Shown here: positions 5,805-60,054 of the stretch, one piece after another
Layout: every line of letters begins with the position of its first letter
Numbering within the stretch: position 1 is the stretch's first letter
From: Perkinsus olseni
Lineage: Eukaryota > Perkinsozoa > Perkinsida > Perkinsidae
DNA: 64,000 bases
Assembly: GCA_013115135.1 (NCBI GenBank)
Contig: JABANP010000017.1
Span: forward strand, 62,001 to 126,000
Reading direction: 5' to 3'
Translations under genes and position numbers: made by a program
The notes under the pieces: generated by a model
Database searches by the model: none
What the model saw: only the letters and a program-made list of their open reading frames with translations
Told to the model about the DNA's origin: nothing

Positions 5805-7720
5805 ATGTATTTCAACTCTGTCTTATTGGCAGTTCTGCTCGGCACAGTTGCCGGCCAGGGGACTGTTATCAGGATCCACCAGCAGAGGCTACCCTTCAGC
5901 AACAGGCGCCCAGACGATGACATCCATTCTCGTCTTGGTGAGTAGATAGATGTTGTAGCCTTTTTTCGCAGTCTTTTGTTCTCAGCCTGAGATTCTCAGG
6001 CACTCTCAGACATATCCAGACACTGGAACTCGACGACGCTGATAATGGCGACGACTTTCTATGGCTTACTTCGATCATAGCAAAGGAGGACGGTACTGGT
6101 CTGCTCGCTGTCAGCGATGATGGGTGAGTCTCGCGTGTGATCAGAGTTTTGGTATATCGGCTGCCCCTGTGCTTAGGTCGTTCGCCGTCATGGACCTTTC
6201 ACCGTCAGCCAATGAAGGGTTTGATGTGGCTGCGGTGACGATGTATCCTATTAGTGATCCTGAGGGCGGGATTGAAGAATATCCCGCGGATGGTTTGACC
6301 GTCAATGGTCCTTATCGCGGCGGGGGAAGAGGAGACCTCATTGTCAGTGGTACGGATGACCGAGGGGTGCTGAGGTAGGAGATACAACTCAGATCCTACT
6401 CGCCCGTCTGGGGCTTGAGTGTATCCTACTCCACGCCGATTGTTATGCTCAGATTTCCCGATGGGATTCAGTCGCAACAGAGCGTTGATCTGAACTTCAA
6501 AGTTATTTTCCCTGAATGCAGTGGAGCGGTGGAAGCCATACTGAGTATCCAGCCTCAACCTGCAAATCACGTTGAAGCCTTTTTCAGAATATCCTCAGGT
6601 TCACAACGAGATCCCGTTGAATACCTGCTCATGTTCTGTAATGAACCGACTGATTCGGCTCCAACCTCAGGCTCTGGAAACACAGTCTACGCCGGCTCCG
6701 CATATGACGGGTTCGTCGCTAGGCCATTTTTTCTCGAGGTAACATGACGGCCTGAACGCGAGGAGGGTGCGACTCCCGTATGAAAGTGGCTCATTGATAG
6801 CACTGTGACTCTACGCCGTGAGGCTCATGGTGAAAGTTCTGTTGCATTTGCAATGCAAATGCCGAGCGTGCGCATAAAAGCGCTACTACGTGCGAGATCG
6901 GCCAGTGCAGACTACCATGCTATTTCGGCCAAGACCGCAATTATACATTTGTTCCTTCCTCAGTCCGGAGATTCGGGTGGTGGGAAGCCCTTCAGACCCA
7001 CCGATACTGCGGAGCTACGCAATGGCGACATCATGATACTCTTCGCGAAGTAAGTTGTTCGGTGGCTCCGTCTTTCAGCGACGATCCGCTTCCTTCGTTA
7101 AGGCAGGATGAAGATATGATGAGGATTGGTTATGTTACGAGGGACGAACTGCGGCAGGCTATTTTTGGCAAAGGAACTTTGAGACCGGAAATCATAGCCG
7201 AGGGCGCGCGGAGGGATGGGTGAGTAAACCATGACCTGATACCAACCGAGTGATACACTCGATATCCACCCAAGGGGTTCGAAGCGTCCGCTGAATACAG
7301 TATTCAGAATACTGCCCACGAGTGATATTTTACTCAACCTCGAAGTTCTCGGACGGGCTTTGTCTCAAAAGTTTGAGTTAATACCCGTGTAATAGTGCAT
7401 CGCCGTGGTCGCTCATTGATTGATCACTCGTCTCTGGTTGCCCAGCGGCAAGGCCAAGCGTGATGCCAGGTACAACATCGGCGAACAAACTGGGCTGGCT
7501 ATCCGGGAGGATCGCACAAGCGGACGCATCTTCGTTCACATGATAAACGACAATTACTACGGGGTGGGTTCCGCTATGTTTATCACAGCTTTGTCATCAT
7601 CATACCTCTCAGGATGAGGAATATAACTTACTTTCCACTTTCGAGTGGATAGCCGCAGGTGGCGAGAGTCCTGGGTGGTGCCAAATCGACGGTGTTAGAT
7701 ATCAGTTAGAACGGTCATGA
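5805..7720 (+). CDS. Secreted phytase-like (PF13449-type) propeller protein, copy A
   Basis: Nine exons join to an uninterrupted 371-aa frame: 5805-5937, 6000-6123, 6177-6374, 6453-6544, 6599-6738, 6964-7049, 7103-7219, 7446-7563 and 7613-7720. All introns are GT...AG, and exon phases agree with copies B and C. The protein starts with a signal peptide (MYFNSVLLAVLLGTVAG). Family-like segments follow: LLAVSDDG (exon 2), GRGDLIVSG and RGVLRFPDG (exons 3-4), LLMFCNEP (exon 5), NGDIMILF (exon 6), MRIGYVTRDELRQAI (exon 7), TGLAIRED and LLSTFEWI (exons 8-9). The order matches the 'esterase-like activity of phytase' domain, including its usual start (LAVSD.G) and end (EGIA...LL.FE). The substrate is unknown, and location is probably extracellular or endomembrane. 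Exon 7 uses an unusual TTAAG acceptor. The family assignment is by eye. Confidence 0.82.
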
Positions 7721-8249
7721 AGATAATAGGCAGGCGCAGCGCGAAAGTGTTATCAGTAGCTGACAGTGCTACTGCTTTTGCCGAAAAGTCTCCGGCTGAA
7801 ACCTCTGAGGACGAGTGACTATTGATACCTCTTAGTGGCAGACAGTGCTACCGCTTTTGCCGACAACCGTTCAGGAGTATTGTACTCCTTGACTCCAGTT
7901 TTCGGTTTTGTAACATAGATGTGCAGCATGAGATTTGACGAGCAGACCGCCGTCTACATCTGGTATGCACAACATGTGCTAATCTTCGCGGCCTCCAGCC
8001 ATTTCAGATGTTTTTGCAGCACAACAGACTAAAATGGTCGCTCTGAGGGCTCATGCTACCCCCTCGCCAACATAAGGCTTTTTTCTTTCGTTCATTGTCT
8101 CAGTATAGGGACAGATTCGGGTTTCACACGATCATATCGGCATGGTGCTCTCCAGTGGCTAGTGTCAATTTGGATTCGCGGTTGCAACATATATCCGCTT
8201 ATCGAACCGCTTAGTGTGTCTTCGAGGTGAAATGGTCAGCGGAGATGAG

Positions 8250-11947: not shown

Positions 11948-14080
11948 TGCTGAAAACTCTATCCTCTTTCTGCGAGTTGGTTTACATTCAATACACCTGT
12001 AGCAGCCATCGCCATTTATTTCACCGTCGACCGACCAGGACGGGTAACTTCCCAATCTTTCAATGGGACCCAGGGAGAATGATTTCGCCGATAACCGTTC
12101 AGGTTGGGGAACTTTTGTATCTCTCAGTAGCAGTCAGTGCTACTGCTTTTGTCGATATACGCCACACTGGCCAGAGCCCTGGCCCGCCGCCCAGTCGACT
12201 CGGTATACGGGTCTTAAAGGCCCTGGAGGAGATATTGATGTGCCGGTTCTGTTTATTATCATCATCCAAGTTAGCTTTGAAACCTAAATGGAAATAAGTT
12301 AATTCTCGGGCCTCTTCACACCGGAAGACTTGTGTTTGATTGTAAGCTGGTCGTCTTTTCAAATCCGGTAGCAATGATGGTGGTGCTATGATAGCACTGC
12401 TATCTTTGAGACCACACAAACGCGTCCCGTGGAATTACTGGGTACGTAATACCCTGCAACGCGAGTGCCGCTAGAGGAATGATTCCTCAGAAATCACGTA
12501 TTCTCAGGACTTAAGGCATTCTGATAGCAGGGGCCCCGGTGCAGGGACGGTCCATCCCTCATCTATCATGAGTGGTCGATGCCCGCTTCAGTGGTTTCTG
12601 AGAACACTCGATCATCGATACTATGGGGGGTCACGATCTACTACTAGTAGACTACTAGGACAGCTTGTGTCTTATCTACGGAACATATCAGATAATGGGA
12701 CACAGCCGCATGACTCATGCGGGTATTTTCTACACTGTGAGTGTAGAAAAGTGTGTAGTCTCTTTTCTGCCTCATGCGGCATGAGGCACTCTTCGAAGTC
12801 AGAGATCTACCATCAACACTTCACACTCCCAACCTCTGAGAGTGTGGCAATTTCGAACGCGCGTAACCGCGATTGGCTATGCCCACCGCATTACGTGATT
12901 CGTACAATGACACAGCGATGGTTCATTCCGCCTTGCAAGGCAACGTTAGCGTCCACAATAGAGATTGCGAGACTAGACAGGAGTTTTGTCACGGAACTGT
13001 CGTGCACAGGCTGTGCAGAACAACACTCGTGCTCAATCGTGCCACAACCGTGCTTCAGGCGATGGCCACCCTGAGTTGATCGATCTCCCACTATCGACAT
13101 CGATCCCTAGTCCTGGAATCCTAGGGTGAAATCCTCCCATGCTGCTTATGAGCATGATGTTGCCAACAATGTTGGCCCAACATCCTGCTGGTAATATTAA
13201 TCAAGTGTATCAACAGAGCTGGTCTATCATCGGCAGGGAGGGACGAGTCGATTCCGATGATTTTTTGGCGGGTCGTGGGTGACGAGGTAGGAGTCAGCAC
13301 GCGTACTTCGAGTAGCTGTGGGACACTCAGCGGCTGAGTGCTAGCCCGAGTGTCACATCAGGCTGAGTGCCTGAGTCATTCAGATCCTTGCCCGACTTGG
13401 GGACCGAATTTCTGGTCAAACCTTTTGAATAATGATCAACCATCACTCTAGCACTACCAAGTCAGTACCAAGCCTCAGACTGGAGTTGTCAGGGGCAACT
13501 GGTCACCGAAGGACCGCGCTCCAGCGGCTAGAGTCCAGCCCCGAGCGTCTTGACTCGAGACGCTATAACCAGATCGCACTCATCCTGTCACCGTGACGGG
13601 ACAGTGTGATGTCACTGAACCGCTAGCCCTGTCCCGTTCACCTATTTACTTGGAACCTCATTTCATCTGCGTTATGATAATCATAATATGATTTTCTTGT
13701 CTTCCCAACAAGTGAGATGATCATCTCGAAGCCCGCGTGACAGCGCTACCTTAAGGCAAATTTGGGCCATTTCCTTGAAGATTTACAAGCTCAAGCGCCA
13801 TTCCAGCCAAGCAACATGCGCCATGGCTATGTGCTCGCGTACTACAATTAGCTCTTTCAGCTCCGGAAGGGTCCCGAATATTATCCGATTACAACGGAAC
13901 TAGACAACTTTCGTCGCCGACGATCCCCCGGCTACTGCTATCGACTGACTTGAGGCTCAAAAATCGGATTGGTCTCTTCTGTGTCTGATTTTCGGAATGA
14001 CCAGGTTACCCTCGCCCTGTCGCTAAGCTCCTGAGTTTTTGTCCCGTTCATATCTTCGCTATGCGCCCGCTACGCACTAC
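11948..14080. other. Hairpin-dense spacer between copies B and C
   Basis: No gene is seen. Around 12110-12180 the 3' flank resembles the flanks of the other copies (a GTGCTACTGCTTTTG word, also near 270 and 7760). From about 12,550 to 13,700 short perfect inverted repeats follow one another, for example TTTTCTACAC / GTGTAGAAAA (12726-12750), GCCTCATGC / GCATGAGGC near 12770-12787, and GCTGAGTG repeats near 13330-13375. Confidence 0.6.
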
Positions 14081-14744
14081 CCTAATGTTGTGGTCAGTTC
14101 CCTGGTCGTCCTCTAATGTTGTGGTCAGTTCCCTGGTCGTCCTCTAATGTTGTGGTCAGTTCCCTGGTTACTCCTTAACGTTCTGGTCAGTTCCCTGGTC
14201 GCCCTCTAATGTTGTGGTCAGTTCCCTGGTCGCCCTCTAATGTTGTGGTCAGTTCCCTGGTTGCCCTCTAATGTTGTGGTCAGTTCCCTGGTTACTCCTT
14301 AACGTTGTGGTCAGTTCCCTGGTCGCCCTCTAATGTTGTGGTCAGTTCCCTGGTTACTCCTTAACGTTGTGGTCAGTTCCCTGGTCGCCCTCTAATGTTG
14401 TGGTCAGTTCCCTGGTTACTCCTTAACGTTGTGGTCAGTTCCCTGGTCGCCCTCTAATGTTGTGGTCAGTTCCCTGGTTGCCCTCTAATGTTGTGGTCAG
14501 TTCTCTGGTCGCCCTCTAATGTTGTGGTCAGTTCCCTGGTTACTCCTTAACGTTGTGGTCAGTTCCCTGGTCGCCCTCTAATGTTGTGGTCAGTTCCCTG
14601 GTTACTCCTTAACGTTGTGGTCAGTTCCCTGGTCGCCCTCTAATGTTGTGGTCAGTTCCCTGGTCGCCCTCTAATGTTGTGGTCAGTTCCCTGGTCGCCC
14701 TCTAATGTTGTGGTCAGTTCCCTGGTTGCCCTCTAATGTTGTGG
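14081..14744. repeat. 31-bp satellite, about 21 units
   Basis: A 31-bp unit built around AATGTTGTGGTCAGTTCCCT is repeated head to tail. The word starts at 14083 and last recurs at 14734, exactly 21 periods. Two variants are mixed: one with CTGGTCGCCCTCTAATG and one with CTGGTTACTCCTTAACG. The second recurs in a partly regular pattern, which suggests multi-unit amplification. It lies between copies B and C. Confidence 0.96.
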
Positions 14745-14894
14745 ACCACAACTTGTGGCCACTGGCCAACTCTCTGAGGCTCGAGTGACTTGAGCCAAGT
14801 CCCTAATCATTAGAGTTCGTAAGCGCACTAGCGCTGCGACCAGCTCTTCAAGTGCGAGAACCTTGGTTGTTTGGGATCTGACGTCGAGGGTCCC

Positions 14895-23783: not shown

Positions 23784-26700
23784 TCAGTCGCCCTGCTCGC
23801 TAACACTAGGCGGTGTCTCCACTTTCGGTTTGGGCTTCTTCCCATCTTCATCATCATCGTCAGACTCGTACTCGTCATCGGAGTCGACCTCAGCACCTGT
23901 CCACAGGACGATGTCAGTTCATCTCATTTCATCAGGAAGAATAGCCGAGAGAACATTTAGCCTCTCAATATGGTGGAAGGTCCCGGGTTCGAATCCCACG
24001 GCCGTCAATTCTACTGTCAACTCACCCATCATCTGTTGGAAGAGCGAAGGTGCGAGATCAATGTCGACATCCTCTTGGTGGATAATCACTTCGCGCTTAA
24101 CCTGAGCGCCAAACTGTGAGTCAGCTATCATCTTGCAATCTTGCTCACCTCGTCTTTCTTCAACGCAGTGAACTCGACTGGTATGCGCTGATCCAGACCA
24201 GCGTAGGAGTCGCACATTATTTGCAGCATGAATTGATGCTTGCCGGCCTCCCTTATCGGGAAGAGTATCTTAACTTCACCCTCCTTCTCAAGCGAGCGGT
24301 ATCGCTCCATTGCGAGGAAGCGTCCGCTGTGGCCATCCAGTCTGAAGAAGCAAGAGCCCTACTAAACGGCATCGAGATATCGGAAAACGCGTATTCAGCC
24401 GAAAGCGTTCAAAATTCATTCGCAACTCAGTGAAGACTTAGTGGACTAAAACCCTCCGGCCCTTCCGCCATCCACTGCTGCTTCCTCCGTAGATATGAGG
24501 GTCAACATTGAGGTTCGCGAGCTATAGCGACGAGTCAGGACTTTTCCCACCCCGGGATTGAACCCACGACCTTCCGCCTGCTTACAAGAAAATCCACCAC
24601 TCCTCGAATTTGGCTTGAGGATAATACGGGGCATGCACTGGTCCAGCCGCCTCGCCCTCCTGCAGGTTCTCGCGATTCAGCTTGATTACGAGCGTTCCGA
24701 TGTCTCCCTCCACAACCTCGTTCTCATCGACAACCTCAACCCTGGTCTGAAAGAGAAACACCAATCACTAGTAGCGCACGCCCTAAGTGATCGATTTGGG
24801 CTCACCTCAATGCTCATCTTCGTCACGTGCTGAACAAACGCCTCAACGTCGGCGAGCTCTTGATCATTCATGTCGGCGCAGCCTGAAGATAAAAAGATAC
24901 GCCACGGAGAACCAGCCGGCGGCGATGACCCGACTGACGAATGCAAGATCGTCCCAGGAATTCGTGAGTGGAGTGGTACTGACGATATCGACAGCAGTCG
25001 GTTCAAATACAGGCGAGCAAGAGGCGAGGACGAACACGGCCAGAGAAAGCAACATGCGCTACCGGGAGCTGAATATTGAAACTAGACGCTGGGCGACTCA
25101 CCCTTTCGGTCCTTCCCAGTCTTATCAGAGTTGAGGAAGTCCTTGAAAGCAGTAGCAGTGTTGGGCTTATTCTTCGTAGCATGACGGGCCTGCTACGACG
25201 AATAAGAGCAAAAGATGGACTGGCCGGGAATCGATCCCGGGTGATCGTCATAGGAGGGCTTGGCTCAACCACCACACCATATTTCCAGTACTACCCTCTC
25301 GCCATCGAAGTGGGGCACCTGATACATGGCGTTACAGCGTTGGTCAAGAGCTTGCACCAAGCATCGCAGGAGCTCCACCATGCTCATACAGGTCGGCCTG
25401 AATTTCAGAGCAACATACAGCCGCCAGGGATCGAACCCGGGACCTCGGACTTACAGCCACTCTCTCATTGCTGAGATCTCCACCATGGCTTGCACTACCG
25501 GCACCAAGCGGACCACGAGAGTGTCCGTGACAGCCCTGATCACCACAAAGTTATACTCATCCTGATACTCGAAAAAATTACAAAAACTCCGGTTATTTTC
25601 GAGGCTCAAGAGAAGCAAAGACGACGTCAAAAACCGCTACACCGACAGAATCCCTCCAAAACTCAGATGACCCCAGGAGCAGTCACCCGGTCGATCCACT
25701 ACTACCGTAGCCTTGGAGTCATCAAGTCCTGCAGTCTCTGCATGTGAGCTTCGATGAGAATCCTGTTGCGTCTGATGACACCTGGACGATCGAACTGCGG
25801 CTTCTTGGGTTCTTGGACGGCTCCGATCTGCCAGAGACAATAATATCAACACCAGCTGACGAGGCGCGTCTTCCTTCACCGCCCAAGGAACACAAATTCC
25901 GCGACCAAAAACCCCGTCACACTTATCCGAGCAAAAATTTGCGGATACACCCGAGTTCAAGGACAAGAGCTTCACCCCAACCACCATCATACAAGAGATC
26001 CAGCGAGGAAGTCAGCTACTAGTGCCGAACTTATAGCGTCGGGTCGAACGATAGATACTAGGCAATTAGGACTCAGAGCATGGCCGAGCTTGACCCACAG
26101 TTAGCCACTTGACTCAGATGCACTATCGTCACTACTGAGCGCCCTGCTTTCGAGAGATAATTCTGTCGAATCACGCTCCTCAGGATGAGATCAAACCACA
26201 AGGGTTGAAAGCTGCACCACAACGCCGCTCGAAACTCATCAATTTCCATTTACGCTATCGACCGAGGAGTCACCGCAAGGAATTGTTCTTTCCCGCAGCC
26301 GCCTTTCTCACCAATGGTTTCATCTCGGCTTCGTCATTGAGATCCGAGTCCATCGTACGGGACTCCGCCGCACAGGATAGGAGCTCCGGACCTACCATCG
26401 ACGATAATTTCGTGGCGCGCGGTCATTCCGTTTGGTACCATTCTTGACTCTGGTCGTTTCGGTAAGGTAGTATCCCATGAACTGCAAGGTCTCCACCATA
26501 ACACCATTAGGTGCGTACCTACGCCAGGTCCCCGGTTCGAACTCCAGCAGCGGTAATTTTTCTTACAATTTCTGCCTCTGATAATAGTAGATGAATCCAG
26601 CAGGAATCACGAAGAGGAGAATTAAGAAAAAAATGATCAGAACGACGACCTGGTTCTGTTGCTCCAACAAGAAGGACGGCAGACCAACACCAATCTGATA

Positions 26701-27950
26701 GAAAAACAGGAAAACCATTTCCCGCGACTCAGGTTCGATCCCCGGGCCCTCCATTTTACCTTCATCGTTTGAGGGCCATCAGGGTTGCCATACTTCTCAT
26801 AGTTAGCCTTAGCAACCTCATCAGTGAGGGCCTGGTAGGCCTTCGAAATTTGAATGAATTTGGCATTGGCCAAAGGGTCACCCTGGTTCCGATCAGGATG
26901 GTATCTGGCATTGAGAAAATTCTACAGCTAGAGGTGTCAGAAAAATACCAACTTACACGAGGGATTGCTTTCGGTAAGCTTTTTTGATCTGCGCGTCTGT
27001 GGCTCCAACCTCGATGCCGAGAATTGAAAATGGGTCGAAGGATTTCACCTCGACTTCCTAGGAGAGAGAATCTTTTGTCATGAGAATGACTAGCATCAAC
27101 CTCAAGATACTCACCGAGTTCATACAGTGTACTGCAGTGAGGCCCAAAAGATACCATAATGAGCATAGTACAACTGCACGTATCCAGAAGCCTTTGGAGA
27201 AACGCTTCGACCTGAAAGATACCTCGAGCGCATGCGGAAGATTTTGCATCTAACAGTATGACTTTTGAGCTCCCGTAGAACAGCTACCTGAATGCTCCCG
27301 GGTCAATAGGTTGAAGCAAGGAATTTATGAAAGTAAAGATTCCTTCTTTCGCTTGCTAAGGTAATTCGCTATTTTCACAAACACTCCGGGCGTCGAAGTC
27401 CGAGACAACTTCATAGTTAAACGATACGTTACTTGAGACGCGACTGTATCAACCTCGCATACACCCACACAGCACAAACAACAGATCCGTCAGCCCTGCT
27501 GACCCAAGCACTCAGAGCGAACAACGAATTTGTCGCGCCGAGAAAGCCGTAATGACCGACAACTCACCATTTCTTCTCCTCTGCTTTGCATTCGTCGACC
27601 TTCTCCGACCATAGTCGATGATTTACAGTATCTATGGAGGGTTGGCGGAAGTACAGCTAGAGGTGTCAGAATAGGAGCCGCACTTCAGTTTAGAGCCTTT
27701 TTCGCTGTACAAAGGCCACTGCTCGTCATGAACCTTGTGCTCTGGGCCAGATCAAACTGTAGATGATGCTATAAGTCCACGGCACCTGAAAGTAATCACA
27801 TTAGTCGACTTATTTTGTATCCTGCAAGCATCAACCTAGGATTCCCGGTATTACCACTATGCAACATAGAACGGCGCCAGCGAAGAAAAAGAAGGCCGAG
27901 TCATCGTAGGCCAGAGTCCCCTCCTTATGCTCGTCCTTCGTGAAGGTGTC
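23784..27950 (-). CDS. SEC63: SEC63, ER translocon J-domain protein
   Basis: Sec63 recruits BiP to the Sec61 channel through a lumenal J domain. On the minus strand, a first membrane segment [15 protein letters not shown] lies near 27900-27850, and a second, [19 protein letters not shown], near 27195-27140. Exon 27057-26957 reads [14 protein letters not shown] and KKAYRKQS. Exon 26921-26760 has the HPD motif ([12 protein letters not shown]) and [11 protein letters not shown]. Exon 26694-26567 holds a third membrane segment. Later come [19 protein letters not shown] (about 25350), [17 protein letters not shown] (about 24600) and [14 protein letters not shown] (about 24170), typical of the Sec63 Brl domain. 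Exons 24113-24026 and 23896-23784 give the acidic tail [17 protein letters not shown]. The start codon was not resolved. Many introns carry tRNA-like sequence. Confidence 0.92.
23979..24000 (+). repeat. tRNA T-arm-like sequence in the last SEC63 intron
   Basis: GGTCCCGGGTTCGAATCCC carries a perfect B-box core. It lies antisense to SEC63, in the intron between 23897 and 24025. No complete cloverleaf could be folded by eye. Confidence 0.7.
24551..24573 (-). repeat. tRNA T-arm-like sequence in a SEC63 intron
   Basis: On the coding strand this reads AAGGTCGTGGGTTCAATCCC. It begins about ten bases after the GTAAGC donor that follows the EEWWIFL exon. Confidence 0.7.
24998..25025 (+). repeat. Weak B-box-like word in a SEC63 intron
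   Basis: CAGTCGGTTCAAATACAGGC resembles a T loop but lacks the closing CC. It is in an intron region, antisense to SEC63. It is listed because it fits the pattern of the neighbouring introns. Confidence 0.35.
25200..25285 (-). repeat. tRNA-like body in a SEC63 intron
   Basis: On the coding strand a D-arm-like TGGTGTGGTGGTTGAGCCA is followed by CCGGGATCGATTCCCGG, a perfect 5-bp T stem with a 7-nt loop. Flanking ACTGG and CCAGT could form an acceptor stem of at least five pairs, giving a body of about 71 nt. The anticodon arm does not fold well. The intron donor GTAGTACTGG overlaps the 5' side of the acceptor stem. Confidence 0.65.
25425..25450 (-). repeat. tRNA T-arm-like sequence at a SEC63 5' splice site
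   Basis: The coding strand reads GTAAGTCCGAGGTCCCGGGT, then TCGATCCCTGG. The candidate 5' splice site GTAAGT is directly joined to the T-arm-like sequence. The T stem pairs with one G-T wobble. Confidence 0.7.
26525..26550 (+). repeat. tRNA T-arm-like sequence in a SEC63 intron (antisense)
   Basis: GGTCCCCGGTTCGAACTCC is antisense to SEC63. On the coding strand, the donor GTAAGA (26566 downward) is followed within about 20 bases by its complement. Confidence 0.65.
26695..26759 (+). repeat. 65-nt SEC63 intron largely made of tRNA-like sequence
   Basis: The intron between the J-domain exon and the third membrane exon is only 65 nt (coding strand GTAAAATGG...CTATCAG). Its plus strand contains GACTCAGGTTCGATCCCCGG, a T-arm-like sequence followed by GGCCCTCCA. 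More than half of this intron is accounted for by the tRNA-like segment and its flanks. Confidence 0.7.
26922..26956 (-). other. 35-nt SEC63 intron
   Basis: This very short intron interrupts the J domain between [10 protein letters not shown] and [12 protein letters not shown]. It starts GTAAGTTGG and ends CTAGCTGTAG. The 3' part contains the 17-bp word found at three other places in the window (see 21254-21270). Confidence 0.75.
27654..27670 (-). repeat. 17-bp recurrent intron word, copy 3
   Basis: This is identical to the word at 21254-21270. It lies in the SEC63 intron upstream of the exon reading [14 protein letters not shown], about 25 bases before a plausible acceptor. Confidence 0.7.
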
Positions 27951-28004
27951 GCGGAAAAGACGACATTACCGGTAAAAAAGGTCGCTCAGACTAACAACAC
28001 ATCC

Positions 28005-28440
28005 ACTCCTAGTGATACAGCAGCAAATCCCGATGGACCTATCCTAGTGCCTTCGAAAGGTATCCTTCTCACGCCCATCAGTCACGGAAGCTTCCAAGGA
28101 GCATTAACCCAGCTCTAGGATACAGCAGAGACTCTCAATGGCCCGTTGACAACGGGCTTATCCTAGTGCCAGGTATCTTTCTTACGGCCATTAGTAAAAT
28201 AAGCTTCCAACGAGCAAGGAACATTAACCCAGTACTCCTAGTGATACAGCACAGTGACGAAAGACCCGTCTAAGTGCCTTTGAGGAGTATCTTTCTTACG
28301 GCCATTAGTCACAGAAGCTTCCAAATAGCATCAAACCCAGCGCTCTTGGATACGGTAAAGCACTGAGCACTGTGGACTGCCTGCCAAGAGCATCTTTCTG
28401 ACGCCCATCAGTCGCAGGAGCTGTCAAGGACTACGCTGAG
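28005..28440. repeat. Imperfect tandem repeat, ~110-125 bp unit, about four copies
   Basis: Each unit carries words such as CCTAGTG, GTATCTTTCTTACGGCCATT, CAGAAGCTTCCAA and AACCCAG. Starts fall near 28010, 28150, 28265 and 28370. Copies differ by substitutions and indels. It lies between the divergent SEC63 and RCL1 genes. Confidence 0.75.
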
Positions 28441-29324
28441 ACTACCGACAGATTTAACCCACCAATGACACAGTATTGTCAGCGCAAGTGGTCGAGCTCA
28501 GCCATGCGTCCGCCCTTACCGATGTTGTTAACAGCAACAGATCACAGTATCAATACACAATACACAGAAGGCCTTCCTGATGCAGGGGCGAAGCTCGTTT
28601 TCTTCGACAACTTCTACAGAGTCATGTCATCGTCTTTCTTGATAAGTTAGTCAGTGATCCTTCGTGTAAGATCGCAATCTTATTAATAAATTTCTGATTC
28701 CTTTCTAGGAGTTTTCAACTGCACAGTGACAAGGCAGACAGGATCTAGGGGATCACGGTGGCCATACCACGTAAACACCAGGTAAATATTTCCCTCATTC
28801 ACCAACCTGTATATGATACAGCTAACAACGTCTATCAGCTCATAGGAACCCGCTGTCGGCAGTACGAAAATCATCATGAGAAAACTGCACGAAAGATTTT
28901 CATGCATTTAGGTCGAATGTCACCAGACTCGGCGGCGGAGGAGAAAGTTGAATTTTATCCTCTTGAGCGAATCCATTTCTCTGAGGACTTTTCCGGTATC
29001 CTGGGGATGGCTGTTCTTTCATGCTGGCATGGTACGGGTTAACTTCACCTGGTCCTGTTTCTGCTGTTGTAAACGTTTCACTAGTGACTCGTCTACTTAC
29101 CATGTCGAACGTGCATGGTTCTGTTTCCACTGAGAGAAAGGATAATCTTATCCTCTGTTCAGTAAAGTAATTCGGAGTATTCAGAATCGATTCTAAAATT
29201 GATTTGTACGCGTAAAATGCGGTTCCAGAATCGACTCTGATTTCCAAAATTGGTTTGTTCAACGGCCCTTGGGAGTATCTTTTTCCATGCTGGCATGATA
29301 TAGGTTAACCTCAGTTGGTCTACC
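28441..29324. other. Spacer upstream of RCL1
   Basis: A minus-strand open frame (28683-28907, with FTWYGHRDPLDP) has no family I recognise. A ~40-bp word is repeated directly: CATGCTGGCATGGTACGGGT near 29018 and CATGCTGGCATGATATAGGT near 29286, each followed by TAAC. The second is just before the RCL1 start codon. Confidence 0.4.
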
Positions 29325-32066
29325 ATGGTGACAGATACCCACCACTATCGAGGCGCCAACTACCTTCGTCAAAGGCTCATCCTCAGCACTCTCACCAGGA
29401 GGCCCGTCCGAGTGACTGACATCCGAACTCAAGCTGAGAACCCCGGTCTGCAAGATTTCGAAGCGAATCTTTTGCGGCTGCTGGATACCATAACAAACGG
29501 TACCAATATCACCGTTAGCGAGACCGGAACTAGTCTCTACTTTTCCCCTGGGGAATTGGTGGGTGGTGAAGTGACGCACGACTGCAACCCGAGCAGGCCG
29601 ATTTCGTATTATCTGGAAGTGTTGCTGAGCTTGGCACCGTTCTGCAAGTTTCCGGTGAAGGCGAGGCTGAGAGGAATCACGCACAGCGAAGGATTCCCTA
29701 GTATTGATACTATTCGTACCGTAACTTTGCCAACTCTTGCGAAGTTGGGAGTGAATAATGACAATTTGGCGTCGACTGCGCAAGGTAGTACTCGGGGGAA
29801 GGTGGCCTTTCTCGCAAGAAAATTTTTGTTGCTTTCTCGCCGGTAAAGCTTGGACTGAGGGAATAAAATTTAGTTCGTTAATACCAAACTTTCCGAACTT
29901 CATGGTTTTCCCTCCGCCCGGTCGGATTTTCGCGGGCAGCCAGACACCGACGTCTAGCGCTCGCGAGAGAATTGCCCGCATAGCGAATCGGGCTCCATAT
30001 TAGTAAACCTTGCTCTTAGCTCCATAGCGCTGTGCTGTGCCGGACGCTCGATATCAACCGGTATGGAAGTCCTCAGGAAGAGGTCCTAACAACTTTCCGA
30101 TCACCAGTAAACTAGTTTGTCAGCAGGCCTATCAGATCGATTGCATTGGTTGTTTGGAAATAGATCAAGAAAATCTAAGAATATGGATTGTGTTGAAATA
30201 TACTATAGATTTGAAGCGCCCATTCCGGGACTAAGATTCTCCTGCCATTGATAGCGGAGATGGTATCTTTCTTTTTGTCAGGAAGCTTGCACATAGTTCA
30301 GCCGCCATTGGCCTTGAAGGTCGAGTCCCGGGGGGATCCTGCCGCGCCGGGAATAGTATCTTTCACTTGTCCCATCGTTAAGAGTAATACACGGTGATTT
30401 GATCCCGTCTGGGGAATCTTTTCTGTGAGGTATTCCGCCCGTGGAGCTCCTTAAGGAGGGAAGAATCAGAAGGGTTAGAGGCGTTGCATGGACGAGCAAG
30501 GTGACCTAGCTAGAAGTGTCAGAAAAAGTCGGACTGGTGAGCGTGTAGGTGTCCCCGCAGTACGCTCCGATGATGATCGATTCGTGTCGCGCCGTGTTGA
30601 ATCCGTACCTGGCTGATGTATGGGTGTTCACGGACGCGGCGAAGAAGCTGCCAAAGGAGGCCCGGGGAGGATACGGCATCAGTCTGGTGGCTGAGACGGA
30701 GAGCGGGGCACTGATCAGTGCTGATGGAATGTCTGAGTAATAGGAGTGGCATGTTGGTTCCGTGGTAGTGCGCGTGGCTCTCCACCGAGAGGTCGCCGGT
30801 TCTTTTCCGGCGGGTGAAATGGTTGAGTTCCTTTTGCTTGCGTAATAGCCCCCTTGATGACAGTTCCGAAACATCAGTTTAAACTCCATTGTTCTCTCTG
30901 CATCAAGGCCTCTTCGCCTTGAATAAAAGTCTATCAGCAATGGTTTAAATATCTTAGCAGTGCCATGCAGTAGCAGTGCCCGGTAGCAAGTATGTTTGAG
31001 CAAATAATATAGTATCTGTTGAAGTACTGCGTGGTCTCGTAATACTCCGCATTACTTGTACACCAGGAAGCTGCGTCTGAGATGAGGTTGGAGTGGTCTT
31101 GATGCGTGAATTTCGTGCCCTTCTATCACACTTGCTGCTAAGGCGTTACAAATCGATACCTGGGAGAAGTGCAAAGTTAGTCCGCCCATACCGCAATAGA
31201 TCTCTTTGTTTTCAGGGCCGAGGCCATCACATCTTCCCACGCCGTAACTGAGCCGGGTCAGCTGGGAGAGGAAGTAGCGCGCGCCCTGCTGGGTGAAGTG
31301 GATTGTGGCGGAGTAGTCGATCGACAGCATCAATGGCTGGCGGCCCTATTCATGAGCATGGCGGCGGATCATAAGGTTATAACGGGGAATCTTAGGTTGA
31401 CCCGTGGCTTTCACAAGTATGCCCGATTATAGGGCGCAGTGGCAGTAGGAAATTCTTCTGTAGTTGTGAACTGTACTCGAATTGAGTCAGGGGATGAATA
31501 GTTGCGCCAGGCGAGGGTCGCAGAGACCAAATTTGAAACGGAAAATTCTTGTGTGGATCGATTGGCCCTCTTCGTTGAGAATATTCTCGAAAAGGTATCA
31601 CGCTGTGTTAGTAGTATTAGGGGCATTGATCGCTATAGCCTTACTTGGTAATCGTGGATTCCATGAGATTTCTCGCATGGTGCTCTATGGTGTACCACTC
31701 TGCGTTCATTAATTATATGAGCTTCAAACTTTAAGAGGGTTGAAGGTCGGGTTAAACTGGGTTCGTCAATTATGAGCTTCAAACTTTAAGAGGGTTGAAG
31801 ATCGTGTTAAACTGGGTTCGTTAGTTTTATCCTCTTTCCAGGTTTCTACTGTTGTATTCGGCCAGGAGCTCACACCCTACACGATAGCCATGCTCCGGAA
31901 CATACGGGACTTCATGGGAGTGGTGTTCAAGTTCAACTCGCAGCAAGTGGAAGAGGAGGTCGTGCTGGATGAGGAGAGTGACGAGAAGGAGATGGCGCTG
32001 AGTCGGTCGGTGCGGCTAAGATGTGTCGGGGCGGGCCTGAAGAACGTCACGAGGCGGACGTTCTGA
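29325..32066 (+). CDS. RCL1: RNA 3'-terminal phosphate cyclase-like protein RCL1
   Basis: Rcl1 is a nucleolar protein of 18S rRNA processing, working with Bms1 in the SSU processome. Exon 1 (29325-29750) starts MVTDTHHYRGANYLRQRL and includes PGLQDFEANLLRLLD, NETGTS-like VSETGTSLYFSPG and GGEVTHDC. Small exons follow, near 30301-30354 (PPLALKVESRGDPAAPG) and 30428-30500 (KEGRIRRVRGVAW). Exon 30549-30736 has VSPQYAPMMIDSCRAVLNPY and YGISLVAET. Exon 31216-31375 has PGQLGEEVARALLGEV and CGGVVD. Exon 31842-32066 has LTPYTIAMLRNIRDFMGVVF and ends at TGA. The phase between the second and third exons was not settled. The intron after 30736 contains a tRNA-Gly-like sequence. Confidence 0.9.
30506..30523 (+). 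repeat. 17-bp recurrent intron word, copy 4 (variant)
   Basis: CTAGCTAGAAGTGTCAGA is the complement of the SEC63 intron word with two changes. It is placed five bases after the donor of a 48-nt RCL1 intron. Confidence 0.6.
30749..30815 (+). repeat. tRNA-Gly-like sequence inside an RCL1 intron
   Basis: Starting twelve bases after the GTAATA donor, the sequence reads GCATGTTGGTTCCGTGGTAG, then a CTCTCCACCGAGAG anticodon-arm-like stretch, then CGCCGGTTCTTTTCCGGCG. The order and spacing of A box, anticodon arm and T arm follow eukaryotic tRNA-Gly. The 3' side does not pair with the GCATGTT acceptor strand, so it is tRNA-derived and not an evident functional tRNA gene. Confidence 0.65.
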
Positions 32067-34151
32067 GAGCACAAGCACTACGTCAATTCCTTACCAACAA
32101 CGTCTCTATCAGCTCCGAGAGTTTGGTTGTAGTGATCTGTTCTAATTTCGTGTCCTGGTCTCCATTAGTGGCCGCTCATTGAGTGCATTCTCAATGATAC
32201 TAACGAAAGATACTCGGGGAGTTTCGACTAGCTTCTTTTAAAGGACACTATCCGCCGTATTAAAGCGTCCTATAGTGAGTTCCGGTACTCTTACAGATTC
32301 GATAATTTTAAATTTGCGCCCCAGGTGGTAACATTGTCGTCTTGCCCTATTTTGTATCCCGGTGATTGGCCTTGATCTTAGGAACCGTTGGTGCCGTGAC
32401 AGTAATAATTTTCCTGGCAATTAAACGCAACAAAGTATAGCAACACTCAGAAGCTAGGGAGAAGTCGGGCTTAGGAATCGAGATTGTGTACAGGTGTCTT
32501 CGAAGAAAGGCCAAAAATTGTCTAAATCGGTGGCTGTTTCGAGCACATTCACTATGGTAATAGCGTCCGATAGTCGCTGCTATAGAGACAGGCTAGATGG
32601 GTTTTTAATATGTGCATTAGTTCTATTGCGACGAAAAAGTCCCCTTGCGGACCGTGTCGCCGCCGCCCGTCTTGATAGCCGTCTGGTCTGCTGCTCGCCT
32701 CGCGGGAAATGTAGTGAAAATCGAAGAGTTCGTCATCTGTTCCGGTGAGCTGGTGGGAGAAAGTCAGCAGAGTCGGTCGCGTACCCGCTGCATTGGCTTA
32801 CAGTGTTTGCTGGTCGTTTCTGAGGAATGCTCTGGTCGAAAGCCGCTGTCGCGATGAGTATGGACTTGATTCTTGTCTCTTGATGTGACTAGATTATGCT
32901 TATGGCCATATTTTGTCGACTAAGGGAACGCGGCGGCTGCGCGGAAAAGCGTGGAGATGAACTGGGACTGAGGATTATCAGGCACTGGATTACAAAATTG
33001 GGAGAAATGTGGTAGTAATTTTGGGGCGGATCTGAACGCTTTCCTGTTCTCTGGGCAGAGGTGAACGTATTTTCCGGTGTGCTCGAGCATCACAGCTGAT
33101 CTCAACATTTCGCGTCCCCTAGGGGGTCACCCAAGCCGAACTTGTCGAATCTTGATTTAGTTGCGGATGGAGTGGTTCATAAATATAGAAATCCAGCACA
33201 CAATTCCTGTCCCCGTGCAGAGGCTCGTCGTTCGTCTAGCAGAAGATTCCGGGAAATTTTTCGTTGTATCTTTCCGGGGCACTCGATCTCAGCCGTGTTT
33301 CTATTCACAGCCTGGAAGAGCGTGATTAGTCGAGGAGGGGAACTTTCCGGTACGCCTCTCGTGCGGACTAACCCCCCTTCCTCACGCGGAGCGTATCTAG
33401 GAGAGACTGGACTGAGTTCGGCAGCTGGCTCAGCAAGAAAAATCTCTCGGATATCGTTCACGGTGTTAGCGGCGAGAGCTCCCGCGTTTATCATTTTCAG
33501 GAAAATATAGCTGAGTGAATACGCCCACCGCGAATATTACTGCATACCGTAACTTCCCGAAATCAGGGTCATGGTCTACTAGACCGCGGATTGAACCGTT
33601 TCCACAGTTTCCGAGCATCGTGAGGAGCAGACGGGAGAAGTTTACTTGGGGCTTTCAGAGGTGCATACCGTATTAAACGCAAGAGATGCTGCTTGGGAAA
33701 GTGAGGCAACTTCTCAGTTTCGGGCCACGCCGGAGATTGAATTGAACATCTGGGGGAAAGCATAACCTGAGCTCGGAAAGGGTCCCTTAAAAGCTCAAAG
33801 ATTCTTGCTGGATGAGTATCAATTTAGTCATAAGTTATAACTAAATTGATACTCATTCAGGAAGAATATAACTCATAACAAGAGATGAGACTCGTTCGGC
33901 GGAATTGATGAGCGATTCGATTTCGACCCACATACTCCACTGGATCAGTCGTGTATAATTTTCAATTTCATTCAATAGTAATCTGATGGATTTCTTGTTA
34001 TGGCTGGACAATTCTTTGCTTACCATGCTATGTAAGTGGGTTGGCGTTGTGGGGACGATCGTTTGAGGGCCGGAATCGCTCCTGGCTGGGCGCTAGTGCC
34101 ACAATAGCATTCGAATTCAGTCAGCATTTGTTTTTTCCGTACCCTATTTAC
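32067..34151. other. Interval after RCL1, no gene identified
   Basis: Both strands have open frames near 33140-33510, and possible small exons (for example RLVVRLAEDSGKFFVVSF near 33224) could belong to a plus-strand gene. I cannot name it. An inverted pair of TAGTTATAACTTATGACTA type occurs near 33822-33850. Confidence 0.3.
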
Positions 34152-35563
34152 GATGGGTTGGCTAAGTAATATTCTCCAGTGGTGTTGCGGGCCGGATGAG
34201 CGATCGAAGGAAGAAGCGTTGGAGTTGGATATCGACAGAGACGAGGAGGCTGCTGTTGTGGCTGATGAGGTGATTCCGTTGGGCAGTAAAATTTCTTTTT
34301 TGGGCGCTTGATGAGAGGGGGGTAGCTTTTCGTGGACCTTCTGGGAAGACGTATTTTCTCGTTTCTGGCTAGCACTTGAGAAAATAGCGCATACGGAGAA
34401 GGGACAGAAAAATTTTGGTCGTTTTTTTCTTTGAGCGGGCTGCTAGGCATGGTCCACTTGCTGTTCAGCAAATTAATTTCGTCAAGTAGGGTTGATAAAC
34501 CTCCCGCACGTGAGTCGTACGATCTACGATCTCAGACGTGTATGATTTTGTTTGAACATAGAAAGAATTTTGACTACCGCACAGCCTCTCCGATACCATC
34601 TCTTCCCGAGTTCACTGGTCGCCCCTCGTTGTGGTTGGGGTCCGGCTCTACCATCGAACAGGGTTGGCAGCTGTCTTGGGGAGACAGATTCTGATGAAGT
34701 TCGATAGCCTAGTGATTGCGTACCATGCGACCTACTAGTGTCGTGAATTGCGGAGCGAGCGGAGCATATACTGTCACTTCTGCGCTTTTTTGTGCGTTCG
34801 TTCGTTCGTTCAAATTATTTCTCCACGACTACGTCGATTCAACTCGCGAGACACATACCATTCGAAAGCACGTGGTTTGTGTATTCTATAAAAAATACGA
34901 AATCGCTCCCATCCCCGTTCCACCAAGCAAAACCGTCGTGGACCGTTGTAGATGGACCCGAAAAAAATACGGGAAAAAACCCGGGCTGGGGTTCGAACCC
35001 GAGACTTCGTGCCGAGCTCCGCTTTTTTCGTTACGAAGGCCTAGTGATACTAGATTTTGCGAACCGGCGTATTTTTGAGGTGGTTGTGGATGGTCGTCAA
35101 TGGTTGTATTCACTCGTAGCCATTAGTGCTGGTGCTGAGAATTTTTTTCGTGGAAATTTTACCGAAATTTTCAGGGAAAATTTTTGGGCTCGTCGGGAAC
35201 TATTTTAGCGCCTAAAAATTGATGATGGATTTTCTCTGTAGTTCTCTCCCCTCTCGATCCAGAGTTCTCCTGGAGGTGATGATGAAGACAAGGAGGTTGA
35301 CCGCGCGCCACGAAATTCACAAGAGTATCAACAGCCTGGTAGTCCCTCTACGGCCGCTTCAAGTAAACAGCAAAAAGTGGTCACTCATGGTAATGACGGA
35401 TGCAGCCTGACGAGGAGGTGGGTCAGTGTCACTTGCTATCTTGCATTTCCTCAACGGTTCGGCCGGGCTTCGATTTCTGTTCTTTCAGACCTACAAGATT
35501 CACGACTTCGGAGTCGGAGCTCCGCAAAAGGTTGGCGGTTTCACATTCCTAACCGATCATTAG
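34152..35563 (+). CDS. Unidentified multi-exon gene, possible N-myristoylated product
   Basis: A first exon begins at ATG 34152 with MGWLSNILQWCCGPDERSKE, where Gly2 and Ser5-like context would suit N-myristoylation and nearby cysteines palmitoylation (inference). Further likely exons read PSLPEFTGRPSLWLGSGST (about 34600), GGDDEDKEVDRAPRNSQEY (about 35270) and TYKIHDFGVGAPQKVGGFTF (about 35495), ending at TAG 35561-35563. Splice joins were not all verified. No domain is recognised. Confidence 0.4.
34767..34900 (+). repeat. Interspersed repeat shared with 21062-21210
   Basis: CACTTCTGCGC, TTTTTGTGCGTTCGTTCG and AACTCGCGAGACACATACCA follow one another as in the inverted copy at 21.1 kb. A tRNA T-arm-like sequence (34981-35003, minus) lies 80 bp downstream, so the pair might be parts of one tRNA-related element. 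Confidence 0.65.
34981..35003 (-). repeat. tRNA T-arm-like sequence
   Basis: The minus strand reads GAAGTCTCGGGTTCGAACCC. It probably lies in an intron of the unidentified gene at 34152-35563. Confidence 0.6.
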
Positions 35564-52991: not shown

Positions 52992-53200
52992 GATAACAAA
53001 GAAGCCTGGTCAACCCGATGTTATGACACGCGCGAGTGTCTCGTACTAGCGCAACACCGGGGTCCTACGAGCCAATGATATCAGTATGCAACGTAACCGG
53101 TGAGGGCCTCTCGAGGGGGTACTGTGTGTACACGTGCTGATAGCTGATTTCGATGAAATCAGTCGCAGAATCCGTGCGGCACAATTACAGATACCAGGCC

Positions 53201-53465
53201 AACTAACACATACCCCACTGGAGCGACGCCAACACGACACAGTGTAATTATACATGGGAAAACCTTCAGCCCGTACGCTGGGAGCGTGGGGGAAGTCTAG
53301 CGATTGATTGCTGAATAGTCTCAGTCGGACGCACGGACCTGGGCTTGGCATACGAGGCTAACAGAGACAGCCGATATAACCGCCATGGCGCAGGCCATGG
53401 GCACGATGTCGAGAGATGGTGGAAGTGTGGTAGGAGCACAACCGCAGAGGGAGCCTATAGAGGCC
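53201..53465. repeat. Retroelement terminal block R1, copy 1
   Basis: This 265-bp block repeats at 59790-60054 in the same orientation with very few changes (for example CAGGCCATGGG versus CAGGCCGTGGG). The second copy adjoins the 3' end of the tyrosine recombinase frame, so R1 is a terminal repeat of that element. Confidence 0.9.
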
Positions 53466-59732: not shown

Positions 59733-59789
59733 ATATGGGGGCGCGCTCCCGTGGCGTGCTAGTCACTTCGTGTGCGAACACACGCCGCG

Positions 59790-60054
59790 AACTAACACAT
59801 ACCCCACTGGAGCGACGCCAACACGACACAGTGTAATTATACATGGGAAAACCTTCAGCCCGTACGCTGGGAGCGTGGGGGAAGTCTAGCGATTGATTGC
59901 TGAATAGTCTCAGTCGGACGCACGGACCTGGGCTTGGCATACGAGGCTAGCAGAGACAGCCGATATAACCGCCATGGCGCAGGCCGTGGGCACGATGTCG
60001 AGAGATGGTGGAAGTGTGGTAGGAGCACAACCGCAGAGGGAGCCTATAGAGGCC
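59790..60054. repeat. Retroelement terminal block R1, copy 2
   Basis: This is the partner of 53201-53465. The recombinase frame ends inside it (stop at 60044-60046), so the terminal repeat supplies the last codons. Confidence 0.9.

Follow-up and report, generated by a model that had tools for sequence, protein, structure and literature searches.

A short tRNA-3'-end-like core recurrent in introns of Perkinsus olseni

The origin of new spliceosomal introns is an old open question. Introners are known from Micromonas and others (PMC9860276, PMC7789003, PMC3488318); in the available excerpts of this literature, they are related mainly to DNA transposons (PMC9860276) and reported from Amoebophrya, an alveolate relative (PMC7789003). 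The words 'tRNA' and 'SINE' are absent from the text of the introner survey (PMC9860276). Introns from transposon insertion are also described, with rice catalase and maize Dissociation cited in the excerpt of PMC3443670. For Perkinsus marinus, the excerpt of PMC3706591 describes Dada DNA transposons, which insert into tRNA genes at the A box, as well as >500 copies of five tRNA types. In the open-licence PMC literature, tRNA-like introns were not found by title or opening of the abstract among the matches listed; Perkinsus combined with introners yielded the Amoebophrya paper alone, and tRNA-derived combined with introner or intron gain yielded none.

Here we analyse a core of about 38 nt in Perkinsus olseni, a parasite of shellfish. 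Genome-wide counts refer to the 61.5-Mb assembly of 968 contigs, in which the window lies on contig C79. We surveyed 264 kb, consisting of the window (the whole 64-kb stretch of DNA that was analysed) and 20 stretches of 10 kb, about 19 of which were placed around B-box matches. Introns were predicted with a gene finder that was trained on the surveyed stretches themselves and whose acceptor model favours T-rich sequence. Of the 18 SEC63 introns, it recovered 13 with exact boundaries, and for RCL1 the predicted protein is identical to the annotated one.

A core resembling the 3' end of a tRNA

Exact B boxes (GGTTCGANTCC) occur 1835 times in the genome, real tRNA genes counted in, compared to 155 matches of the reversed pattern that served as control. 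Among 84 exact B boxes read in fetched stretches, 11 overlap tRNA genes called by ARAGORN (three of them doubtful, being calls with long introns, once on stretch L015 and twice on L037) and 73 have no such overlap. These 73 share a core that extends from about -12 to +26 relative to the B box, and conservation outside this range is almost nil. The core consists of AGGTCCC, GGTTCGAWTCCCRG, three free bases, CGG, CA and an oligo-T, which in tRNA numbering we take to be the variable loop, the T arm, C72, A73 and a Pol III-type terminator. A weight-matrix search at a threshold of at least 14 bits detected 54 core sites in the 264 kb, including real tRNAs and the sites that chose stretches or trained the matrix, compared to a mean of 1.3 in three simulated sets with the dinucleotide frequencies of the 264 kb. 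Among 255 short introns, eight score at least 9 (0.1 expected), and there is a weak surplus at low scores, which gives no decision between a gradual and a two-peaked decay of the cores. Exact or one-mismatch B boxes in the window number 13, compared to 9 with the reversed pattern; the signal comes from the longer core and the genome-wide count. One core in the window (34972-35009, minus strand, 26.7 bits) lies outside any predicted gene and is followed by long T runs.

Pooled tRNA genes would account for the conserved core positions, and the likeness to a tRNA 3' end is established. The sequence-only reading had gone further and proposed a tRNA-derived element; for whole tRNAs as the source, the support is weaker. 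In the window, ARAGORN called no tRNA gene and no Rfam tRNA match reached the gathering score; in positions 18000-46000, the Rfam tRNA model gave nothing even with E values of up to 10 allowed. Among full-length cases, the highest score belongs to the SEC63 intron at 25294-25190, with 15.4 bits in a search of a short stretch compared to a cut-off of 29. The RCL1 core intron, which had been credited with a nearly complete tRNA-Gly-like body, gives no Rfam tRNA match. The three outer T-stem pairs are formed at chance level (34, 29 and 30 of 71 cores, where composition expects 36.6, 27.8 and 29.4), and the acceptor halves are no more complementary than controls. A boxes at tRNA spacing with at most two mismatches are in slight surplus (29 of 103 sampled cores versus 12-19 in six control windows). 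Offsets -15, -14, -12 and -11 are slightly enriched in A, A, C and G, respectively, which suggests that the likeness extends into the anticodon arm. The 71 cores show no T-stem covariation that would point to RNA structure, and this reading was rejected; CpG decay is an unlikely cause of the unpaired T stems (CpG observed/expected 0.89).

Similarity between copies beyond the core is absent among the 103 sampled cores (27 of 44 positions at best). Decay from one single source is thus not supported, as the sampled copies share the core alone. One relative of the element at 23986 matched it at 40 of 45 positions, reaching about 8 nt beyond the core. By eye, no target-site duplication was noticed in the SEC63 and phosphatase introns.

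Cores within introns of SEC63, RCL1 and a phosphatase

SEC63 (23787..27965, minus strand) encodes a J domain and a Sec63 Brl domain and has 18 introns, which were defined by a spliced alignment with P0001, the annotated protein of P. olseni, this species being the best match; two of the introns (27 and 23 nt) are doubtful. The core is present in six of the 18, three times in sense and three times in antisense, with B-box starts at 23986 (+), 24564 (-), 25237 (-), 25437 (-), 26534 (+) and 26732 (+) and weight-matrix scores of 15.6-40.0 bits. All intron positions that follow are on the minus strand. The antisense cores lie in introns of 65, 48 and 129 nt. In the 65-nt intron (26695..26759), the 3' end of the core (26722-26759) forms the donor, and 38 nt of core leave a remainder of 27 nt. 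The core at 26524-26561 makes up nearly the whole 48-nt intron (26519..26566), and the 129-nt intron (23897..24025) contains the core at 23976-24013, which scores 40 bits. The sense cores are found in introns of 57, 105 and 244 nt. In the 57-nt intron (25398..25454, core 25410-25447), the B box follows the GTAAG donor at a distance of 17 nt, the 105-nt intron (25190..25294, core 25210-25247) holds the degenerate full-length tRNA-like body with the Rfam tRNA score given above, and the 244-nt intron (24342..24585) has a weak core of 15.6 bits at 24537-24574, 11 nt off the donor. A second SEC63 copy, which would allow an empty-site comparison, was not found in the assembly, where the gene is single-copy. 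Metagenome proteins that are 42-50% identical to the Perkinsus SEC63 and phosphatase proteins are present on contigs of up to about 130 kb or more; these possibly belong to uncultured perkinsids whose introns could be used for comparison.

RCL1 (29325..32066, plus strand; protein identical to P. olseni P0241) has five introns, one of which carries a core: the 479-nt intron at 30737..31215, with a sense core at 30788-30825 (B-box start 30798+, 18.0 bits). The observation made from the letters alone is thus confirmed: the weight matrix recovers cores in six SEC63 introns and one RCL1 intron, all of them protein-checked. The four core-free introns of RCL1 measure 46-497 nt. By eye, the 46-nt one (30384-30429 of the window), with the sequence GATTTGATCCC ... 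TTTTC, might represent a core that has decayed. In a PPEF-type phosphatase on stretch L014, 27 introns were defined by alignment to its annotated P. olseni protein, and five of them contain a core (lengths 50, 60, 51, 54 and 97 nt).

Across these three protein-checked genes, 12 of 50 introns have a core, which is not a genome-wide rate because the genes were chosen for having cores. Without the 38 nt of the core, the 12 introns would measure 10, 12, 13, 16, 19, 22, 27, 59, 67, 91, 206 and 441 nt. Seven of them are 48-65 nt long and leave 10-27 nt. The smallest of 32 core-free introns in SEC63 and the phosphatase, with the two doubtful SEC63 calls excluded, has 46 nt, and the core-free introns of RCL1, which are not among the 32, leave this minimum standing. 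As the remainder is below this minimum, the seven short introns are introns in part by virtue of the core; barring later deletions, they can hardly have existed as ordinary introns prior to it. The proposal that an element creates introns thus fits the short introns better than colonisation of existing ones. The five longer introns (97-479 nt) give no decision between creation and colonisation. For comparison, the excerpt of PMC3101222 reports P. marinus introns of 39-1622 bp, mostly <100.

Intron enrichment, placement and further intron motifs

Cores were detected in 33 of 638 predicted introns, a proportion that is no genome-wide rate since the stretches were mostly picked for a B box; the 16 gene models listed are of different kinds. 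The 264 kb contain 50 non-tRNA cores, of which 18 had been used to choose stretches and 32 are unselected. By gene prediction, 21 of the unselected cores are located in introns, seven outside genes and four in exons. The core at 24564 was predicted to be exonic, yet it is intronic by protein alignment, which gives 22 of 32 in introns, compared to the 29% of bases that introns occupy (p 3.5e-6). The excess of B boxes in introns, which had been set beforehand as the test, is therefore present. When only bases outside genes are taken for comparison, 22 of 29 unselected cores are intronic (p 0.001). The selected cores are distributed over introns (12), exons (four) and sequence outside genes (two). 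A further 53 cores on short stretches of 0.6-1.2 kb were kept out of this count; the gene finder placed six of them in introns, four in exons and 43 outside any gene, the latter in our reading owing to too little sequence per stretch.

The six intronic cores from the short stretches were included in the analysis of placement. Both orientations occur, as had been noted, with 21 sense and 18 antisense cores among the 39 that lie in introns. The core was also said to lie near the 5' splice site. In each of the six SEC63 introns, the distance from the donor to the start of the core is 0-47 nt; across 33 intronic cores, however, donor and acceptor distances are alike (medians of 21 and 20 nt, counted by hand), and we rejected a general nearness to the 5' splice site. 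Instead, the element tends to have its 3' end close to the splice site that this end faces (39 introns, KS p 0.004 versus random placement), with p 0.11 for sense and p 0.010 for antisense cores alone. In an antisense example, the donor is the complement of the tail (GTAAAATGG); in a sense example, the T tract runs into the acceptor (GTCTTTTAG).

We also counted splice-like words beside B boxes independently of gene models. TTCAG downstream of a B box has 139 matches genome-wide, and 53 of the 100 listed are tRNA-Arg-like repeats (46 judged from the letters and seven from array spacing). With these left out, TTCAG is found 47 times and TTGAC 13 times up to the same contig among the matches listed, compared to a genome word ratio TTCAG/TTGAC of 1.27. 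At the 3' end of 103 cores, neither YAG nor YAC shows a surplus over composition, so that the word counts give a mixed picture. Little weight can be given to GTAAG upstream of the B box (70 versus 38 for GATAG), as the GTAAG matches include real tRNA-Thr genes and GATAG, the control word, overlaps AGGTCC. The antisense comparison of GTAA with AATG (108 versus 320) was discarded, as AATG complements the CATT of the core itself and is unsuitable as a control; from the genome-wide frequency of GTAA, 68 rather than 108 matches would be expected, a surplus that is unreadable because the place is T-rich. Arrays of tRNA-Arg-like repeats are located on contigs G000:C96 and G000:C137, with regular spacings of about 316 and 653 bases, and end in TTTCAG.

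The B box is not the only recurrent word in these introns. A motif-free 10-mer search, with simple repeats removed beforehand, found 21 words in at least seven introns, compared to 0 in three simulations, and the leading groups are the B box and three further families, m2, m3 and m4. For m2 (GCTTCGCTCCGCTAG), 12 of 14 matches are intronic. All 12 matches of its form TGCTTCGCTCCGCTAG in stretches with gene models (L010, L012, L013, L014, L017, L019, L020 and L027) lie within predicted introns, eight of which are 45-64 nt long, and a close variant has 50 exact copies in the genome. For m3 (CGCGCGCCACGAAATTC), 11 of 14 matches are intronic, in both orientations (e.g. in a 78-nt intron on L014); the variant GCGCGCCACGAAATTC has 263 exact genome copies. 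For m4 (TTCTGACACCTCTAGCT), seven of 10 matches are intronic, and the variant TTCTGACACCTCTAGCTRT has 107 exact genome copies. The reversed control gave 0 for each of the three variants. Protein-checked introns with these motifs are two in SEC63 (minus strand), namely the 47-nt intron at 26392..26438 with m3 (CGCGCGCCACGAAATT) and the 52-nt intron at 26905..26956 with m4 (TTCTGACACCTCTAGCTGT), one in RCL1, namely the 48-nt intron at 30501..30548 (plus strand) with m4 in antisense, and two in the phosphatase (m2 or m3). Sites of m4 in the window are 26942 (-), 27671 (-), 21271 (-) and 30501-30548. The presence of several motif families makes a general cause more likely than something specific to tRNAs; such a cause could lie in multiple introner-like families or in multiple intron motifs under selection.

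Repeats of other kinds were observed in the window. A near-perfect inverted repeat at 33797-33871, with sub-threshold Rfam similarity to animal microRNA hairpins, is probably a short inverted-repeat element. A 31-base tandem repeat with at least 21 overlapping registers is located at 13956-14875, and two recent duplications are 99% identical (1-300 with 7493-7792, and 53198-53465 with 59787-60054).

Possible origins and comparison with known systems

The explanation that we favour, at about even odds, is an introner-like creation of introns from short tRNA-3'-end-like pieces; the interpretation offered by the sequence-only reading is supported in part. Short tRNA-like or Pol III-type sequences would have been inserted into exons, and the insertions would have survived where their own ends could serve as splice sites. 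In sense orientation, the T tract would lead into the AG acceptor, and in antisense orientation the complement of the T tract would supply a GTAA-like donor; the 5' side is variable. The inserted pieces would have decayed afterwards. Insertion may have followed a retro-insertion route with 5' truncation; the cores would be tRNA-derived, and we infer that the source was a tRNA rather than a SINE-like relative, and likewise the direction of change. We speak of introner-like sequences and not of a proven introner family because the copies fail end-to-end similarity, and intron gain would be part of the same model. No fewer than four families of short motifs recur in P. olseni introns, and the core family, which would act like introners, is among them. 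More tentatively, a sizeable share of the short introns might come from several minimal intron-making families of about 45-65 nt, the largest being derived from 3' ends of tRNA-like Pol III transcripts whose oligo-T terminator became a polypyrimidine tract in one orientation and part of a 5' splice site in the other; tRNA fragments would then supply material from which new spliceosomal introns are made.

It is rather unlikely, in our view, that tRNA-related or SINE-like debris entered pre-existing introns, where it was tolerated, with subsequent deletions bringing some core introns down to their present short length. Such debris would explain why five of the 12 protein-checked core introns (97-479 nt) need no core to be introns and why seven of the 32 unselected cores lie outside genes, and the slight A-box surplus would allow some copies to be remnants of longer pieces. 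However, seven of the 12 leave 10-27 nt, under the 46-nt minimum of other introns, and the element tends to have a splice site close to its 3' end. We consider it still less probable that the core is a selected site maintained both within introns and outside them, e.g. a B box of the TFIIIC type or a signal linked to splicing, and that no element arrived at all. This would be consistent with copies that have the B box and its near flanks in common and differ in all else, with the existence of further intron motifs, and with the unpaired T stems, which are expected if protein binding and not tRNA folding matters; yet the near-equal orientations speak against a signal at the RNA level, and the match exceeds what a bare B box would require, as it takes in the variable loop, C72-A73 and, at tRNA spacing, an oligo-T. 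Very improbable are chance matches or ordinary tRNA pseudogenes unrelated to introns: the B boxes of the window alone, 13 versus 9 in the control, would be compatible with chance, whereas the core count (54 versus 1.3), the genome-wide B boxes (1835 versus 155), the intronic location of 22 of 32 unselected cores and the introns checked by protein contradict it.

A large class of introns built on a tRNA-3'-end-like core would have a different source than DNA transposons and a simple route to splice signals. Perkinsus would then be a testable system, where intron presence or absence can be scored between isolates and species. If the core is instead a selected binding site, protein-coding introns would harbour a B-box-like element that is widespread and of an unusual kind.

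SINEs derived from tRNAs have a B box, an oligo-T and a degenerate resemblance to tRNAs. These three traits are common to the P. olseni cores. Unlike SINEs, the cores have no shared body or tail (no conservation past +26 in the 73 exact B boxes without tRNA overlap, and none between the 103 sampled copies), and the A box at tRNA spacing is present in slight surplus only. The rice catalase intron is reportedly a SINE-like case. In the introns from transposon insertion described in the excerpt of PMC3443670, a mobile element is spliced out as a new intron, as we propose for the cores; those are few events, whereas the motif in P. olseni is recurrent genome-wide. Dada transposons resemble our case in the genus and in tying mobile DNA to tRNA genes; however, Dada targets tRNA genes (PMC3706591, in excerpt), whereas the intron cores are tRNA-like 3' ends within protein genes. 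According to the excerpts of the introner literature (PMC9860276, PMC7789003, PMC3488318), introners share the whole intron, whereas the P. olseni copies share the core of about 38 nt alone. Furthermore, the element reaches nearly both splice sites in Micromonas, and likewise in the short core introns of P. olseni; the core is near both donor and acceptor in seven of the 12 protein-checked core introns and not in the other five. Introners are likewise a recurrent sequence in introns of unrelated genes, and, as with the motifs of P. olseni, several families occur per genome.
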